Notes under the pieces: model-generated
What the model was told of the DNA's origin: nothing
What the model saw: only the letters and a program-made list of their open reading frames with translations
The model's database searches: none
NCBI GenBank assembly: GCA_947492955.1
Contig: CANLOV010000001.1
Coordinates: forward strand, 372,001 to 436,000
Direction of reading: 5' to 3'
From: an uncultured Cellulophaga sp.
Lineage (GTDB): Bacteria; Bacteroidota; Bacteroidia; Flavobacteriales; Flavobacteriaceae
Length of the DNA: 64,000 bases
Translations under genes and position numbers: made by a program
In this document: in pieces, positions 36,861 to 59,878 of the stretch
How the letters are laid out: each line of letters opens with the position of its first letter
How positions within the stretch are numbered: the stretch's first letter is position 1

Positions 36861-36951
36861 ACAACGCAGCGCTATGTGGAGTCCGCGAATTTTTATGGAA
36901 ATATAGGAAAAACTTTTTCGTTTTTTTACCTCAGTTCTTTGTTGTGATTAG
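36861..36951. repeat. attC-like element E3 (AACGCAGCGC class, shortened)
   Basis: ACAACGCAGCGCTATGTGGAGTCCGCGAATTTTTATGGAAATATAGGAAAAACTTTTTCG…CTTTGTTGTGATTAG. Confidence 0.72.
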
Positions 36952-38507: not shown

Positions 38508-39731
38508 TTATCCGAACATTTTATCCCAAAGATTTTTTTTCTTTTTGTCCTTTGAACGTTCTATTACAATTCTTGTAACGTCAGCTACTCTATCTTTAAT
38601 TTCTAGAATCCATTCGTTATGCCCTTCAATATCAGATGAATTCTCTTCTTGATATTTTGATATTTCAGATAGTTCACTCTCAAGTAATCTAAGTTGCTCT
38701 TGCAAATTATTTTGTGTGTAATTTTTAAAATATTTTATTTGCTCAAAATCCTTTTTTTCAACCAGTTCATCAAGAATATCACTTGTATACCTATTCCAAT
38801 CGTTAAGATAATCGTGCTTTATTAATACATAACTAGCATATGCAATACATAGTCTTTTAAAATTTGGTTTTTCTATATGAGTTAGTACGAAATTTGAATT
38901 CGAAGCAACCTTAAATTTTTTAAAATATTCGGTTTCTGCTATTTCATACGATTGAAATGAAGAAATATTTGAAGATTTGTTTTCATCTACTTCTATTATG
39001 AAGAAGGGATTTTTATTTGGACTTATACCAAGCCAATCTTTTCTGATTTTCACGTGGTTTTTTATAAAAACTTCATTCAACTTACTATGGACATTATATT
39101 TATCATCAATCTTTATGAGTTCCTTTTGTTCACTTAACGTTAAATTTCCGTTGTTAGAAAGTAAAAGATGAAATTTTTGAAAATCAGGATGCTCTTGACC
39201 TTCTTTGATTTTAAGGTTATATAAAATATCTATGATTTCTACCATAGAAGCCCATTTATGGCTTTTAACTGTTCTAACCTGAATCTCTATTATTTTATGT
39301 TTATTTATAGGGCTTTCAATGTAAATGTGATAGCCTCTATAACCATCTTCCTTGTTTTCGGCTAAATAATCGTTAACGCCAGTTACCACAAAATTACTTT
39401 TCAAATTTGTAATTACTTTTATCAATGAATCCTCGCTGTAAAGTAGAATTCTACAGCCAGCAATGTCACCCATATTACCCAAAGACATAGTTGGTTGTCT
39501 TTTTATTTTAGATAATATTGACTCTATTCGCTTAATTCTAAATGAAGTGATGCTATCTTTTCTTGCATTTTTCGCTATATCAGATATTTTTTCAAAGACA
39601 GCAGAAATGTCCTCTTTAAAAGATGTTCGATATTCTTGTAAATTTTCTAATAATTCTAAGGAAGGCTTTTCACCCAGTTTAATTTTACCTCTAAGTGCTT
39701 TTCCTAATTTATTTACTTGTGATTTCGTCAT
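38508..39731 (-). CDS. RelA/SpoT-domain protein ((p)ppGpp-synthetase-like, possible small alarmone synthetase or toxin)
   Basis: SFRIKRIESILSKIKRQ…MGDIAGCRILLYSEDS…EDGYRGYHIYIESPINKHKIIEIQVRTVKSHKWASMVEI. Confidence 0.82.
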   Translation of the reverse strand: MTKSQVNKLGKALRGKIKLGEKPSLELLENLQEYRTSFKEDISAVFEKISDIAKNARKDSITSFRIKRIESILSKIKRQPTMSLGNMGDIAGCRILLYSEDSLIKVITNLKSNFVVTGVNDYLAENKEDGYRGYHIYIESPINKHKIIEIQVRTVKSHKWASMVEIIDILYNLKIKEGQEHPDFQKFHLLLSNNGNLTLSEQKELIKIDDKYNVHSKLNEVFIKNHVKIRKDWLGISPNKNPFFIIEVDENKSSNISSFQSYEIAETEYFKKFKVASNSNFVLTHIEKPNFKRLCIAYASYVLIKHDYLNDWNRYTSDILDELVEKKDFEQIKYFKNYTQNNLQEQLRLLESELSEISKYQEENSSDIEGHNEWILEIKDRVADVTRIVIERSKDKKKKNLWDKMFG

Positions 39732-39749
39732 TTTTTGTCAAATGCAGGG

Positions 39750-39945
39750 TAACGGTTCGGCTAAGCTTAGTGCGGAGGCAAGGAAACTTTTCGTTTCCGT
39801 CTGCGCACGAAGCTAAAGCTTATTGTTTTGCTTTTTCTTTTTTACTCTAAAGCTAAATTCATAAGATTTAGCGACTTCATAAATATACATAGACTTTTCG
39901 ATTTAGCTCAAAACCCCGTATTACGTTTAAGCATTGATGTAAGCA
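39750..39945. repeat. attC-like element E6 (GTGCGGAGGCAAGGAAAC class)
   Basis: TAACGGTTCGGCTAAGCTTAGTGCGGAGGC…CGTCTGCGCACGAAGCTAAAGCTT; GCTAAAT…ATTTAGC hairpin; tail …ATTACGTTTAAGCATTGATGTAAGCAG. Confidence 0.75.
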
Positions 39946-39946
39946 G

Positions 39947-40534
39947 TTATTTTTCACGAACATCAATTTCCATTTCAGTTTTAGCCTCCTGAATTTTACT
40001 TTTAATTATCAATTCAATTCCATCAAGTGATTTATCACGTTCTTCAGTTATTGCCTTATAGACAGATGAGTACGGAAATCCGTTAATCTTGTATTCTTTG
40101 TGAATAACGGTTAAATCAGTACCATACTCGTCACTTAACTCTTTCCATTCACAGTCCAAATTGTCCACAATATTTTGTCCAAAAGCACTACCAATAAGAG
40201 CAACAACTAACTCTTCAGATTCTTTCTTCGGAGATTGGTCCATCTTCCATGCGTTTAGAATTAAATCCAGATTTTTTGATTCCAAAATATCTTCATTGAC
40301 ATTCGAATATTTTTTTGCAAATATTTTTGCTTTTTCAATGTCCTTTTCGATTTGTTGAAGTTGTTCATCCGTTAAATCTTTCAAGGAAGTATTGCTAGAA
40401 AGTCCGCCTTCTGATTCCGTAGTTTCAATTTCTTGGCCGTCCACGACTACAGTTTTTTCTTCAACCTTTTGTTTGCAGCTTGTGCCAATAATTGTCAGAG
40501 CTAGAATGATATAAATACTAAAAGTTTTTTTCAT
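39947..40534 (-). CDS. Hypothetical lipoprotein
   Basis: Lipobox TIIGTSCKQK. Confidence 0.65.
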   Translation of the reverse strand: MKKTFSIYIILALTIIGTSCKQKVEEKTVVVDGQEIETTESEGGLSSNTSLKDLTDEQLQQIEKDIEKAKIFAKKYSNVNEDILESKNLDLILNAWKMDQSPKKESEELVVALIGSAFGQNIVDNLDCEWKELSDEYGTDLTVIHKEYKINGFPYSSVYKAITEERDKSLDGIELIIKSKIQEAKTEMEIDVREK

Positions 40535-40544
40535 AATTGCAGGT

Positions 40545-40768
40545 AACGCAGCGCTATGTGGAGTCCGCGAATTTTTATGGAAATATAGGAAAAAACTTTT
40601 TTGTTTTTTTTATGTATTGGGAATAAAAATTGGCGACCAGATTACATATAACGACATGTAGCCTATTGGGTAGACGTAGGAGAATGCAATTCATCGGTCT
40701 AGTGTATGATTTCGTTGCGTGTTTAAGCACTAAAGTTAGCAAAGAATTATACACGTTCTTGTGTTTAG
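40545..40768. repeat. attC-like element E7 (mosaic of AACGCAGCGC, GCAATTCATCG and TTATACAC modules)
   Basis: GGTAACGCAGCGCTATGTGGAGTCC…GACCAGATTACATATAACGACATGTAGCCTATTGGG…AATGCAATTCATCGGTCTAGTGTATG…AATTATACACGTTCTTG. Confidence 0.72.
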
Positions 40769-40908: not shown

Positions 40909-41496
40909 CTATTGTTCCAATTGATTTATTAATTCCTTAATTCCAGATATTCTTGGGTTTATTTCTTTTTTCACTCTTTTTTTATTTAAGAAATATCCAT
41001 AAACACCTATCCCGATTGTAGCCACATTAATAAGAATAATCAAATATATTGGAACTTTTCCCCAAACGCTGATAGTGAATAATAAAATTATTGGATAAAC
41101 TGGTAATATTCCCCAATAGAAATATGATTTAAGGAATTTCTTTTGTGCTTGAATATATTCCCTGTTTTTTTTGAGATAATTGAGGTAATTTTTTTCTAAG
41201 TCACTTGGCTTAAATTTCTTAATGCTCCGATATTTGATTATTAAATAAATTGCACAAATCATTATTAATCCTATCGCTGTTTTAGTCAGAGCGAAAGGAA
41301 TCTTGAATAATAAAAGAAGGCATACTAAAATTCCAAATACAGCTAAAATCGTTTCTGAAAGTTCAATATAATTCCACCATTTGTCTAAACGCTTTAAACT
41401 TGATTGCAATTCTATCATTAATTTTGATTTCTCAAATTTTACACGCTCTTGATTGCTGGACGATTGCCAGATTTTAATTAATTCATCTTCTATCAT
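40909..41496 (-). CDS. Membrane protein coupled to ECF sigma factor (possible anti-sigma)
   Basis: Two hydrophobic segments plus a C-terminal pair; ATGA overlap with the upstream sigma-factor gene. Confidence 0.6.
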   Translation of the reverse strand: MIEDELIKIWQSSSNQERVKFEKSKLMIELQSSLKRLDKWWNYIELSETILAVFGILVCLLLLFKIPFALTKTAIGLIMICAIYLIIKYRSIKKFKPSDLEKNYLNYLKKNREYIQAQKKFLKSYFYWGILPVYPIILLFTISVWGKVPIYLIILINVATIGIGVYGYFLNKKRVKKEINPRISGIKELINQLEQ

Positions 41497-41996
41497 GATG
41501 TTTCATTTATGCAGTTAAATAATTTTGATTTAATCCGCTTGATTTTTACGGCTACGTGATTTTCAGATAACCCAAGTATTTCTGAAATTTCTCGGTATGC
41601 CAATCCCTCCAAGTATAAAGCAACTATTGCCTTGTCTCCATCATTTAATTTTTTAACACACTTCCTTAAAGCGATTAGTTTTTCATTATTATTTTCAATT
41701 TCTATTTCAGAACCTATATTACAAATAGTTATACTATCTAATCTTATAAATCGGTTTTGGTTTTTTGTATATTTTGATTTGAAACGAAGGCAAACATTTA
41801 ATGCTATCCTAAACATCCAAGTATCAATAGATGAACTGCCTTTAAATGAACTCATCGACTTCCAGATTTGAACTAAAACCTCTTGAAATAGGTCTTTTGA
41901 GTCTTCATTATTATCAGAATATATTGAACAAAGCCTATATAATTTATCTTGGTTTTCTTCAAGTTTGGATAGAAATAGGCTTTTTTGTTTTTCCAT
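41493..41996 (-). CDS. ECF-type RNA polymerase sigma factor
   Basis: NNEDSKDLFQEVLVQIWKSMSSFKGSSSIDTWMFRIALN (region 2), GDKAIVALYLEGLAYREISEILGLSENHVAVKIKRIKSKL (region 4). Confidence 0.92.
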   Translation of the reverse strand: MEKQKSLFLSKLEENQDKLYRLCSIYSDNNEDSKDLFQEVLVQIWKSMSSFKGSSSIDTWMFRIALNVCLRFKSKYTKNQNRFIRLDSITICNIGSEIEIENNNEKLIALRKCVKKLNDGDKAIVALYLEGLAYREISEILGLSENHVAVKIKRIKSKLFNCINETS

Positions 41997-42108: not shown

Positions 42109-42288
42109 CAACGCAGCGCAATGGGTAGCCTGTAAATTTTATGGAAATATAGGAAAAAACTTTTTCGTTTTTTTTATGTGTTGGGAATAAAAATTGGCGA
42201 CCAGATTACATATAGCGACACTATAAATATACACAGACCTTTCGGTTTAGCCTAAACCCCTAATTACGTTTAGGTTTTGTTGTACAAA
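42109..42288. repeat. attC-like element E8 (mosaic)
   Basis: GGCAACGCAGCGCAATG…CCAGATTACATATAGCGAC joined to ACTATAAATATACACAGACCTTTCGGTTTAGCC…ACGTTTAGGTTTTGTTGTACAAAG. Confidence 0.75.
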
Positions 42289-42291
42289 GTT

Positions 42292-42879
42292 TTATGCTAC
42301 TCCGTTTATTCTCAAATTGTAATATTCTTCTTTAGTCAAATTTACTTTTAAATTAAAGTAACAACTTCCTCCATCTGCAACCACAATTGGTTCTTTTCTC
42401 CAATCAAAATTCTCATTCTGTTTGCAAAAGAAATTAATCCAAATTTCCTTTTCTCCTAATTCATTAATAACAGTTACGTACTGTCTTCTATATCTTTTTA
42501 AATCTAGCTCGAAACCAGTCTTTTCTATGCCTTTTCGTTCTAGATGAGAATTGACGACTTCAACAAAATTCTTTCTTTCTAAATTATTTTTTTTAATGGC
42601 CTTTTGAATTAATAAATTTACTTTATCCAATTCTACTACGTTTAGTTCAGATGGCTTAGCGTTTTCAAAAATCCACCACCATTCGGTAGTGTAAGTTAAG
42701 AATGTATAACCACTTTCTGATGTATTTAAATCGGATTGCTCGGTATTAATTCCAGCTTCGATTTCAGTATTCATAACTGGCTTTTCTCCCATCACAGTTC
42801 CAATAAAAATTGTAACTCCAATCAAAACTAAACCTGCAAATAGTGCAAGGGTAAATAATATGTTTTTACTTTTTTTCAA
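42292..42879 (-). CDS. Hypothetical membrane-anchored protein
   Basis: N-terminal TM; 195 aa. Confidence 0.62.
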   Translation of the reverse strand: MKKSKNILFTLALFAGLVLIGVTIFIGTVMGEKPVMNTEIEAGINTEQSDLNTSESGYTFLTYTTEWWWIFENAKPSELNVVELDKVNLLIQKAIKKNNLERKNFVEVVNSHLERKGIEKTGFELDLKRYRRQYVTVINELGEKEIWINFFCKQNENFDWRKEPIVVADGGSCYFNLKVNLTKEEYYNLRINGVA

Positions 42880-42895
42880 ATTTTGTACAATGGTC

Positions 42896-47155: not shown

Positions 47156-47483
47156 TAACGCAGCGCTATGTGGAGTCCGCGAATTTTTATAGTAATATAA
47201 GAAAAAAAATTTTTTGTTTTTTTGTTGTATTGGGAATAATAATTGGCGACCAGATTACATATAGCGCTGCGATGAATTGCATTTTCCCAATGGGCGAGAA
47301 TCGAGAGGAACGAGATGTAGCCTATTGGGTCGACGTAGGAGAATGCAATTCATCGTTGTTGTATAAGATTAGTTGCGTGATTTAAGAGCTAAAGTTAGCA
47401 AATAAATCACAGATAGAAAGTCCGCGAGGACTTTCGTAAATAGGTTAGAACTAGCAATTAATTTTATACTGTGTTGCCAGTAG
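47156..47483. repeat. attC-like compound element E11 (three palindromic modules)
   Basis: GGTAACGCAGCGC…ATATAGCGCTGCG; CGATGAATTGC…GCAATTCATCG (47270-47355); AAGTCCGCGAGGACTTT hairpin; tail TACTGTGTTGCCAG. Confidence 0.75.
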
Positions 47484-48365: not shown

Positions 48366-48782
48366 GCAACGCAGCGCTATGTGGAGTCCGCGAATTTTTA
48401 TGGAAATATAGGAAAAAACTTTTTTGTTTTTTTCATGTATTAGGAATAAAAATTGGCGACCAGATTACATATAGGGACATGATGTGTTGCGTTATTTTCT
48501 TCCGTTAAGGATCGTGTTTGGCAAGAGTTCTCTTATTCTATGGCCATATGTAATCTGACATAGCGCTGCGATGAATTGCATTTTCCCAATGGGCGAGAAT
48601 CGAGAGGAACGAGATGTAGCCTATTGGGTCGACGTAGGAGAATGCAATTCATCGGTTTGTATATGATTTCGTAGCGGGATTTCAGAAAAATTTCGAACTA
48701 TAGAAATCAAGCTTTATTAAAAGTAACAGTTTTCCATTTAGTAGGAGAACAGCTATGAATTATAGGCCTTGTTGTAAAACGT
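48366..48782. repeat. attC-like compound element E12 (largest, nested palindromes)
   Basis: GGCAACGCAGCGC…TAGCGCTGCG; CAGATTACATAT (48461-48472)/ATATGTAATCTG (48546-48557); CGATGAATTGC…GCAATTCATCG (48569-48654); GGTTTGTATATG…AATTATAGGCCTTGTTGTAAAACG. Confidence 0.75.
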
Positions 48783-52913: not shown

Positions 52914-53110
52914 CAACGGTTGGGCTAAGCGTAGTACGGTTTTAGAGAAACAATTCCCTTTGCGCCACAACCCGAAGCTAAAGCTTTTGGCTTAGTTTTA
53001 TTTTTCCTTGTCCAAAGCTAAATTCATAAGATTTAGCGACATTATAAATCTACATAAACCTTTCGGTTTTGCCCTAAAGCACTCATTAAGTTCAGGTTTT
53101 GTACTACGCA
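52914..53110. repeat. attC-like element E16 (GGCTAAGC class, variant apex)
   Basis: GCCAACGGTTGGGCTAAGCGTAGTACGG…CCGAAGCTAAAGCTT; GCTAAATTCATAAGATTTAGCGAC; tail ACCTTTCGGTTTTGCCCTAAAGCACTCATTAAGTTCAGGTTTTGTACTACG. Confidence 0.76.
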
Positions 53111-53114
53111 GTTT

Positions 53115-53717
53115 TTATTCGAAAAGTACTTTCTTTTGTATTTTATCAGTTGGCATAATTTTATTGTCAAATTCACTAAATATGATTTCAGGAATAGAAT
53201 AATTATCAATGTCCATTTTAGTGTAGCCTACATATCCATACATCCAGTCTTTATTTGCAAATAAATGTGGTTCATAGCTCTTAAATTTAAAGATTGAAAA
53301 AGAAATTGAGTTATCTAAATCCATTGTTTCAAAAAAATTGATTTCATCGGGTATTGAGTCATATTCATCATTCATATTTAACCAGTTAGCAAGGTAACTT
53401 TCATTAGCTTTTTCTCTTGTCAAAAATTCATTGGGGAACAAGTCCAACTTATTATACTTCTTTAGTACTTCAAATACAAGAATTCTATTCTCCAGATTCT
53501 TTGAATGCTTTAATATTTCATTTCTATTAAGAGTCTTATCGTTTTTTAGTTTGGAGTAAATCCTTCTGATTTTGTCAAACTTTAATTCTTCTGGAGATAG
53601 TTTAGCTATTCTGAACCTGTTGTAGAAGAATCTAATTATCAGGAATTTTACAGAAACGACAACGATAATTCCGATTACTAATTGGATAAGCTCCATTTTA
53701 CTTCCAGAGTCCAGCAT
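53115..53717 (-). CDS. Hypothetical protein with N-terminal TM
   Basis: 200 aa ORF, ELIQLVIGIIVVVSVKFLIIRFFY. Confidence 0.62.
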   Translation of the reverse strand: MLDSGSKMELIQLVIGIIVVVSVKFLIIRFFYNRFRIAKLSPEELKFDKIRRIYSKLKNDKTLNRNEILKHSKNLENRILVFEVLKKYNKLDLFPNEFLTREKANESYLANWLNMNDEYDSIPDEINFFETMDLDNSISFSIFKFKSYEPHLFANKDWMYGYVGYTKMDIDNYSIPEIIFSEFDNKIMPTDKIQKKVLFE

Positions 53718-57535: not shown

Positions 57536-59878
57536 TTAATTGATGCTGAAAAATGATTTTTTCTTTTTTATACCATACCCGTATCCATAACCATATCCGT
57601 ACCCGTAACCATATGTTTTTTTATAGTTTACATCGTTTACTAATAGTCCCATAGTATTAAAACGCTTTTCTAGATGTAGATTTTTAGGAATATCTAACAT
57701 TCTTTTATCCGAATAATTAAAGCGAACAACAAAGGCGCATATATCGGCATAGGAACTTAGTAATAAGGTATCTGCTACTAAACTTACTGGTGGCGTATCT
57801 ATAATAATATAATCGTAATCTTTTTTTAGTTGTTTAAAAAGCTCTACTACTCTAGTACTTTTTAATAATTCGGCAGGGTTAGGCGGAGTGGTACCAGATG
57901 CTATAACATCTAAATTATCTAATCCTTGAACCTTAGTGATAATGTTTTTTATTTTTAAATCTTCATCGGTAATATAATTGGTAAGTCCTATTTCCGATTT
58001 TAACCCCATATGCGTTTTAATCATAGGAGACCTTAAATCCATTTCTAATAAAGCTACTTTTTTTTCGGAACGCGCAAGTGTTATAGCTAAATTACTAGCT
58101 ACAAAAGATTTACCTTCTCCTTTTCTGGTAGAGGTAATTAAAATAGTTTTGTTTTTTGTTTCCTTGTTAGATAAAAGAAAATTTAAGTTTATATCTAATA
58201 ACCTAAATGATTCTGCAACATCTGACTGGTCTTCTGCTAAATCTTGAATTTTATTGGGTTGCGATGCACTTGGGATATCTCCTAAAAAGGGTAATGGTAG
58301 TGATCGTCTTAAATTCTTTAGGTCGTGCACTTTTGTATCTAAGGTATCTTTAGCTAAAATAATTAGTACAGGAATTAATAAACCAGCAAGAAAAGCAGAG
58401 ATATAAGTTTTATTTTTTTTAGGGTTAACTGGTGTCATAGATGTAAAAGGTTTTTCTATAACTTTAGCATTGGTAGCACTTGCGGCTAAGGATATGGCAG
58501 CTTCCTCACTTTTTTCTAATAAATAAAGAAAGAGGGTTTCTTTAATTTGTTGCTGTCTTTGTATATCTCTTAATTTACGTTCTTTACCTGGTAAACTGCC
58601 AATTTCGGAATTAATAGTAGCCCCTCTTTTGTTGTAACCTGTGTGCTGAGATTTTAAAGATTTTTGGAGGTTAAAAAGACTCTGCATTAGATTGCTTTCT
58701 TGGTCTTTTATATTTGTATTTAAGGCTATTAATATAGGGTTTTTGTCTCCCGAGCTTTTTAATACGTTATTTTTTTCTACAACAGCTTCGTTATATTTTA
58801 TAATTAAATCTGAAATATTTCTGTTCTCAAAATCTAGTGTGGCTGGTAGTAGTTCTCCTTTTTTGTTTTTTAAATGATTAATAATAAGGCTTACCAATTC
58901 TTGTTGTATGGCATTGTTAAGTATTATAGTTTCGTTTTCAGATTCGTTTTTTAAAAAAATAGTAGCTTCAGTAGGTAAATCGGTAAGCTTATTTTCTATT
59001 TTAAAAGTTTGTAAATTTCCTTCTAAGTTTGCTAATTCAGTATTTATAATATCTAACCTTTCCTGAATAAAATTGGCTGTATTTTCTATGATTTCATTTT
59101 TGTCGTTTACAATATTTTCATTGTATTCATCAATAATACTTGTTAAAATTGTTTTAGCTCTATCTTTAGATTTTGTTTCCATAGAAAGATATACTACAGT
59201 TGTTTCTGGATCGTTTATCCCTATTTTTATGGTAGATTTATATTCTTCTACCGTATTGGCTAGTGACGTTAATGTTACATAAATTTGAAGTCCGTAATAT
59301 TCTGGATTTAGAAGCGCATTTGTATTTAAAGTAAAGTTGCCAAAATCGCTAGAAAGAGGTTTGCCAACAAATCCTTTTTTAATAAATTTTCCTTCTAAGT
59401 CTAATAAATTATAGGTCGATGCAGATGTAATAGCAACTATAAATTCGCTATTTTTTTTGTAAACATCAGAATCGTTAAAAATAATGTTGATAGGATTTTT
59501 TTCTACCAACTCTACCATCATTTTAGAATATTTTGTTTTGGTATGGTATTTTATATTAAGATTTAATTTTTTTACTACATTTTCCATTATAGGTCTAGAC
59601 CTAATAATTTCAATTTCATTTTCTACCTCTTTATTTCCATTTTTAAAAATAGATAAGTCTTCCAGAGCAGAAAGTTCAGATAAAACGCCTTCGTTTTCTA
59701 CTTTTACCAAGATACTTGCCGAAACTTTATATGTCTTTTGAGTGTACCTTAAGTATAAAAAAGCAATAACAAAGCTTGCACCAAAGACAACAAGAAAGAG
59801 TTTCCAATGGTAAACGTACTTTTCTAGTAAGTCTTTGATAATCGAATGTTCCTGATTATCTTGGTCTTCGTACTTCAT
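57536..59878 (-). CDS. Wzc-like chain-length determinant / BY-kinase with (YG)n tail
   Basis: Wzz N-terminus; TSTRKGEGKSFVASNLAITLA Walker A; tail KKTYGYGYGYGYGYGYGIKKKK. Confidence 0.92.
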   Translation of the reverse strand: MKYEDQDNQEHSIIKDLLEKYVYHWKLFLVVFGASFVIAFLYLRYTQKTYKVSASILVKVENEGVLSELSALEDLSIFKNGNKEVENEIEIIRSRPIMENVVKKLNLNIKYHTKTKYSKMMVELVEKNPINIIFNDSDVYKKNSEFIVAITSASTYNLLDLEGKFIKKGFVGKPLSSDFGNFTLNTNALLNPEYYGLQIYVTLTSLANTVEEYKSTIKIGINDPETTVVYLSMETKSKDRAKTILTSIIDEYNENIVNDKNEIIENTANFIQERLDIINTELANLEGNLQTFKIENKLTDLPTEATIFLKNESENETIILNNAIQQELVSLIINHLKNKKGELLPATLDFENRNISDLIIKYNEAVVEKNNVLKSSGDKNPILIALNTNIKDQESNLMQSLFNLQKSLKSQHTGYNKRGATINSEIGSLPGKERKLRDIQRQQQIKETLFLYLLEKSEEAAISLAASATNAKVIEKPFTSMTPVNPKKNKTYISAFLAGLLIPVLIILAKDTLDTKVHDLKNLRRSLPLPFLGDIPSASQPNKIQDLAEDQSDVAESFRLLDINLNFLLSNKETKNKTILITSTRKGEGKSFVASNLAITLARSEKKVALLEMDLRSPMIKTHMGLKSEIGLTNYITDEDLKIKNIITKVQGLDNLDVIASGTTPPNPAELLKSTRVVELFKQLKKDYDYIIIDTPPVSLVADTLLLSSYADICAFVVRFNYSDKRMLDIPKNLHLEKRFNTMGLLVNDVNYKKTYGYGYGYGYGYGYGIKKKKSFFSIN

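Follow-up and report, generated by a model that had tools for sequence, protein, structure and literature searches.

A probable deletion-fused attC-like site in an integron-like gene-cassette array of a flavobacterium

In the fused gene cassettes of class 1 integrons, such as blaGES-1/aacA4, the first attC site has been partly lost while both reading frames have been kept, and the first gene is expected to move only with the next one (PMC4670013). Gene cassettes without an ORF are known from oral Treponema (PMC6557892). Within Bacteroidetes proper, IntegronFinder 2.0 recorded one complete integron, that of Salinibacter ruber (PMC9024848). No description of the flavobacterial system reported here was found in the open-licence literature. 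The locus also invites comparison with sedentary chromosomal integrons and with CALINs, which are clusters of attC sites without a nearby integrase. We analysed a 64,000-nucleotide stretch of the genome of an uncultured Cellulophaga sp., referred to below as the window, centring on a repeat (E8, window positions 42109–42289) that an earlier note had described as a hybrid of two repeat classes.

The gene-cassette array and its gene-less element

Between ∼35.4 and 56.2 kb of the window almost every gene is on the minus strand, and most neighbouring genes are separated by a repeat. Genes in this region are each followed by an attC-like site and are mostly codirectional; judged from sequence, this is a minus-strand gene-cassette array whose repeats are attC-like recombination sites. 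The start of a cassette (G↓TTRNNN...AATT, the arrow marking the cassette boundary) is complementary to a box located just past the gene at the other end of the same cassette. For the 45 cassettes lying behind an end of element B (see below), the start matched its own R'' box at a mean of 11.29 of 13 positions, a value reached in none of 20,000 permutations of the starts (permuted mean, 9.71). One cassette is found at the ends of three contigs (C11, C18 and C24), behind an attI-like site and behind two different attC ends; the three contig ends have 75–77 bases in common, with identity beginning exactly at G↓TT. On contig C10 a second attI-like copy is followed by another cassette from the same G↓TT point. 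The crossover is thus placed at G↓TT by a cassette present in both attI and attC contexts, and these contexts, together with the start rule, read as footprints of site-specific cassette insertion.

The first repeat class, A, is widely distributed in the genus and the family, and no match to it was found in phages. An Rfam search of the window returned a tRNA only. The array resembles sedentary chromosomal integrons and CALINs in its codirectional cassettes, imperfect-palindrome sites, G↓TT crossover and complementarity between cassette start and R'' box, as well as in the attI-like site beside a tyrosine recombinase and the several arrays per genome. It departs from them in that the recombinase has no IntI-specific insertion and scores below the integron-integrase cut-off, and in that the array of the window is located apart from it. 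Counts given for the whole genome combine fetched stretches with whole-genome searches. One of the cassette genes (window positions 38508–39731) encodes a RelA/SpoT domain (Pfam PF04607) and might specify an alarmone synthetase or a toxin.

The second repeat, element B, is a 283-bp cassette with 25 full copies in this genome (mean pairwise identity 95%). None of its frames is open over more than about 45 codons, and it contains no plausible ORF. All 24 full copies tested follow an attC-like R' end and precede the next cassette; the two bases in front of them are CG in 23 copies and AG in the remaining one, and TT follows in every case. We considered and rejected the possibility that B is a MITE or a REP-like dispersed repeat, because the full copies have fixed boundaries, an attC end on one side and a cassette start on the other. 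The 'element types' of the earlier note turn out to be attC sites and an ORF-less cassette, which are routinely adjacent here. Like the ORF-less cassettes of oral Treponema (PMC6557892), B has cassette boundaries, a strong attC of its own and no plausible ORF; unlike them, it is one sequence repeated at least 25 times through the genome. The fold is strong (z about −8 to −9, bottom strand). Many copies are truncated at the 5' side at varied points (172 to 252) and keep the R' end, and one of the internally deleted variants of the window (40547–40694) recurs on contig C1 (102561–102708). None of 17 congeners contained a full copy of B, one of them having a weak match of 39 bases, and plasmids gave no match. 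TTG-N17-23-TAnnTTTG is a promoter consensus; scanning B for it gave no match, leaving a promoter function unsupported.

Features of the array and of the E8 locus in the window
Feature	Position	Strand	Basis
B tail (B 220–283) joined to another gene cassette at its end	36865–36927	minus	
Class A attC, both halves (A parent type)	39738–39952	minus	
B with internal deletion (about B 46–171)	40547–40694	minus	
ECF sigma-factor gene with a partner ORF; located downstream of E8	40909–41996	minus	
G↓TT boundary, start of next cassette (TTGCCATTAATA...)	42111–42112	minus	
B positions 182–283, the 3' tail of this ORF-less cassette	42112–42212	minus	
Patch in the E8 B tail, 10–11 clustered mismatches vs 97% identity alongside	42117–42134	minus	
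8-base tract TGTCGCTA common to both parents, site of join	42213–42220	minus	
Class A attC 5' arm; L''-like stretch drifted, AATTAGGGG vs AATGCGGAC in intact copies	42221–42278	minus	
R''-like box CTTTGTACAAC of upstream cassette, kept in E8	42279–42289	minus	
ORF (195 aa) without a Pfam match; belongs to the cassette that has E8 as its attC	42292–42879	minus	
Cassette start A↓TTGTACAAAAT, complementary to own R'' box (42279–42289)	42880–42891	minus	sequence reading
Old diverged B copy, 73% identity	45342–45531	minus	
B with 89-bp deletion between two CGCTAT repeats	47159–47353	minus	
Intact full-length B cassette, 283 bp, ORF-less	48370–48652	minus	
Class A attC, both halves	52920–53115	minus	

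Structure and origin of the hybrid repeat E8

E8 consists of the 5' arm of a class A site and the last ∼109 bases of B, so that alignment bears out its description as a hybrid. Read on the minus (coding) strand, positions 42289 to 42213 are 86–91% identical to the 5' arms of the best-matching class A attC copies, and positions 42220 to 42112 align to positions 174–283 of B; the first 85 bases of this tail differ from the B consensus by two substitutions and one 1-base gap. The sites at ∼39866 and ∼53031, used for comparison in the earlier note, are class A copies with both halves. The two parts join within an 8-base tract that both parents have in common, TGTCGCTA (TAGCGACA on the plus strand). 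This is the position at which the note had placed the switch, with the common tract one base longer than the TAGCGAC it had given; in a number of A copies from congeners it extends to 9 bases. Past TGTCGCTA other A-type copies run on into GTCGCTAAATCTTATGGATTTAGC, and B copies enter it from ACATCAT. If all possible A × B junctions are considered, no more than ∼0.05% of them lie in a common tract of 8 bases or more (a share computed post hoc), and the position of the join is therefore unlikely to be due to chance.

Searches with full-length E8 resulted in matches in 26 of 59 related genomes, the matches listed covering the A half only. A match spanning both halves was found in none of the 59 relatives and is present in this genome only, which largely refutes the reading that E8 is the ancestral full-length form from which A and B were derived; conservation of such a form across species, which the earlier note had named as the finding that would refute its proposal, was not seen. 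Little favours this reading apart from the single tract of 8–9 bases that A and B have in common at this point, whereas class A has a wide distribution in the genus and family, B and the A/B junction were found in this genome alone, and E8 itself shows no pairing of its arms. We regard it as extremely improbable. An assembly artefact joining two repeats would be conceivable in a draft in which B copies break many contigs, but E8 is in the interior of a contig of 672 kb and each of its halves has differences of its own, making this explanation very improbable as well.

The most satisfactory account, which we consider probable, is that E8 is an attC site fused by a deletion, the gene-cassette array around it being integron-like. 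The ancestral order we infer is the cassette with the 42292–42879 gene and a full class A attC of ∼195 bp, followed by the 283-bp B and then by the next cassette. Slippage during replication, or a repair event at a hairpin, would have removed about 300 bp (∼296 bp) between two TGTCGCTA tracts, one halfway along the A site and the other consisting of the same 8 bases at positions 174–181 of B, and would have joined the A 5' arm to the B tail. Since attC followed by B is the usual order in this genome, one local deletion would explain E8. The window contains two more deletion products, and in all three, E8 included, B resumes at ∼172–182. When an attC hairpin is too stable, slippage and SbcCD are among the fates described for it (PMC8946536); slippage or SbcCD cleavage of stable attC hairpins may plausibly have caused the E8 deletion.

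Several observations count against this model. An intact A–B pair with the exact GTCGCTA subtype of A was not present in the stretches examined, and one deletion leaves the clustered mismatch patch of the B tail unaccounted for; no source of the patch was found among the loci examined. The patch might instead hint at a second exchange, under the alternative that E8 arose when an A site recombined with a B element located elsewhere in the genome, or when the template switched from one to the other. Both classes have many copies and the tract at the join is common to both. However, with B normally placed behind an attC, a local deletion is the simpler explanation, and the upstream gene, cassette start and R'' box fit one undisturbed cassette; such a distant exchange appears unlikely. 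Of the earlier proposal of recombination or template switching between element types, the recombination-type junction in microhomology thus stands, whereas an exchange between distant elements is not needed, a local deletion being sufficient. The recurrent resumption of B near 172–182 in several junctions might, on the other hand, mark a site preferred by the recombinase of the array, which would then have made E8 at a secondary site. Yet the normal crossover is at G↓TT at the R' end, not at TGTCGCTA, and the breakpoints of other truncated B copies are scattered from 194 to 252. We think this quite improbable. A further point against the single-deletion model is that for the cassette start of the downstream ECF sigma-factor unit no R'' partner was found, which points to more than one rearrangement at this locus.

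Arm pairing and consequences for the upstream gene

For four intact A copies and for B, none of 300 shuffles paired as well as the bottom-strand arms. The bottom-strand arms of these A copies pair more strongly than those of the top strand; the arms of B pair strongly on both strands, the whole-site fold being more stable on the bottom one. An imperfect palindrome with a more stable bottom strand is a property of the intact sites that is missing from E8 and from some old copies. The arms of E8 do not pair (P = 0.84), and E8 was therefore rejected as a foldable attC. With arm pairing lost it is probably not a working attC, and on this structural reading we take it to be probably a dead, non-recombinogenic site. 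Arm pairing is likewise missing from two further class A copies of the window, which also counts against the model; the loss is not unique to E8, and decay of sites is not unusual in this array.

In consequence of the site loss the 42292–42879 gene would move, or stay, only with the following unit. As far as can be read from sequence, it is comparable to the leading gene of a fused cassette (PMC4670013), with part of its attC lost and the frames kept. The 3' half of the A site is missing and the ORFs on both sides are retained, the downstream unit being itself atypical. In contrast to the class 1 fusions, the tail of an ORF-less cassette here takes the place of the lost half, and the attC sites of the array are ∼200 bp long. 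Taken alone, E8 is a small scar and a modest finding, and most of the interest lies in the array and its unusual recombinase; it nevertheless illustrates a route by which cassettes in such arrays may fuse into fixed units.

The candidate recombinase and the wider system

A gene for a tyrosine recombinase of 359 aa (contig C11, 105757–107041) is divergent from an attI-like site and the first cassette at the contig end, an arrangement also seen in classical integrons. Judging by position, a gene of the C11 type is likely to encode the recombinase of the array, although the array of the window is not adjacent to it. The best solved relative of the protein is Vibrio cholerae IntI4. The IntI-specific insertion (the additional domain around patch III) is absent, profile positions 179–240 being unmatched. 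The spacing of the two boxes is 58–59 residues in all 24 recombinases measured, the C11 protein included, and about 101 in IntI4, which has about 43 more residues between them than the C11 protein.

A small integron-like unit is present on the mobilizable plasmid pSMS7 of Arenibacter algicola, where positions 57556–59206 comprise a similar recombinase gene, annotated as an integron integrase, an attI-like core and one cassette that ends in a class A site and obeys the start/end rule. The cut-off of TIGR02249 (265 bits) was reached neither by the C11 protein (199.9 bits) nor by that of pSMS7 (205.5 bits), and a search of the relatives with this profile gave no match anywhere, an outcome without weight since matches are scored in pieces. 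With NF040815 (recomb_XerA_Arch) the pSMS7 recombinase passes and the C11 protein falls just under the cut-off; this family is named 'site-specific tyrosine recombinase/integron integrase', and here a candidate lies beside attI-like and attC-like sites. In six of the seven congeners assembled as single contigs the best recombinase match is within 15 kb of a class A site (0 of 20,000 random placements), the seven matches including two partial genes and one with a stop codon. The second attI-like region (contig C10, 121294–121429) is 86% identical to the first and has a different cassette next to it; no recombinase gene was matched beside it.

The additional domain of IntI is thought to define integrons, and the system bears on whether it is truly needed for cassette recombination. 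Integron-like capture in Flavobacteriaceae may go undetected because the recombinases are without the domain used for recognition. It seems to us about evenly balanced whether the family harbours an integron-like system that is widespread but has largely gone unrecognised, its attC sites being ∼200 bp long and its recombinase XerA-like and devoid of the IntI additional domain, and whether in this genome a gene-less 283-bp cassette has multiplied through the arrays, with deletions of it, E8 included, locking neighbouring cassettes together. In the present genome contigs C2, C10, C17, C20, C21, C22, C29 and C30 end within B copies, and the arrays are therefore larger than the draft assembly shows.
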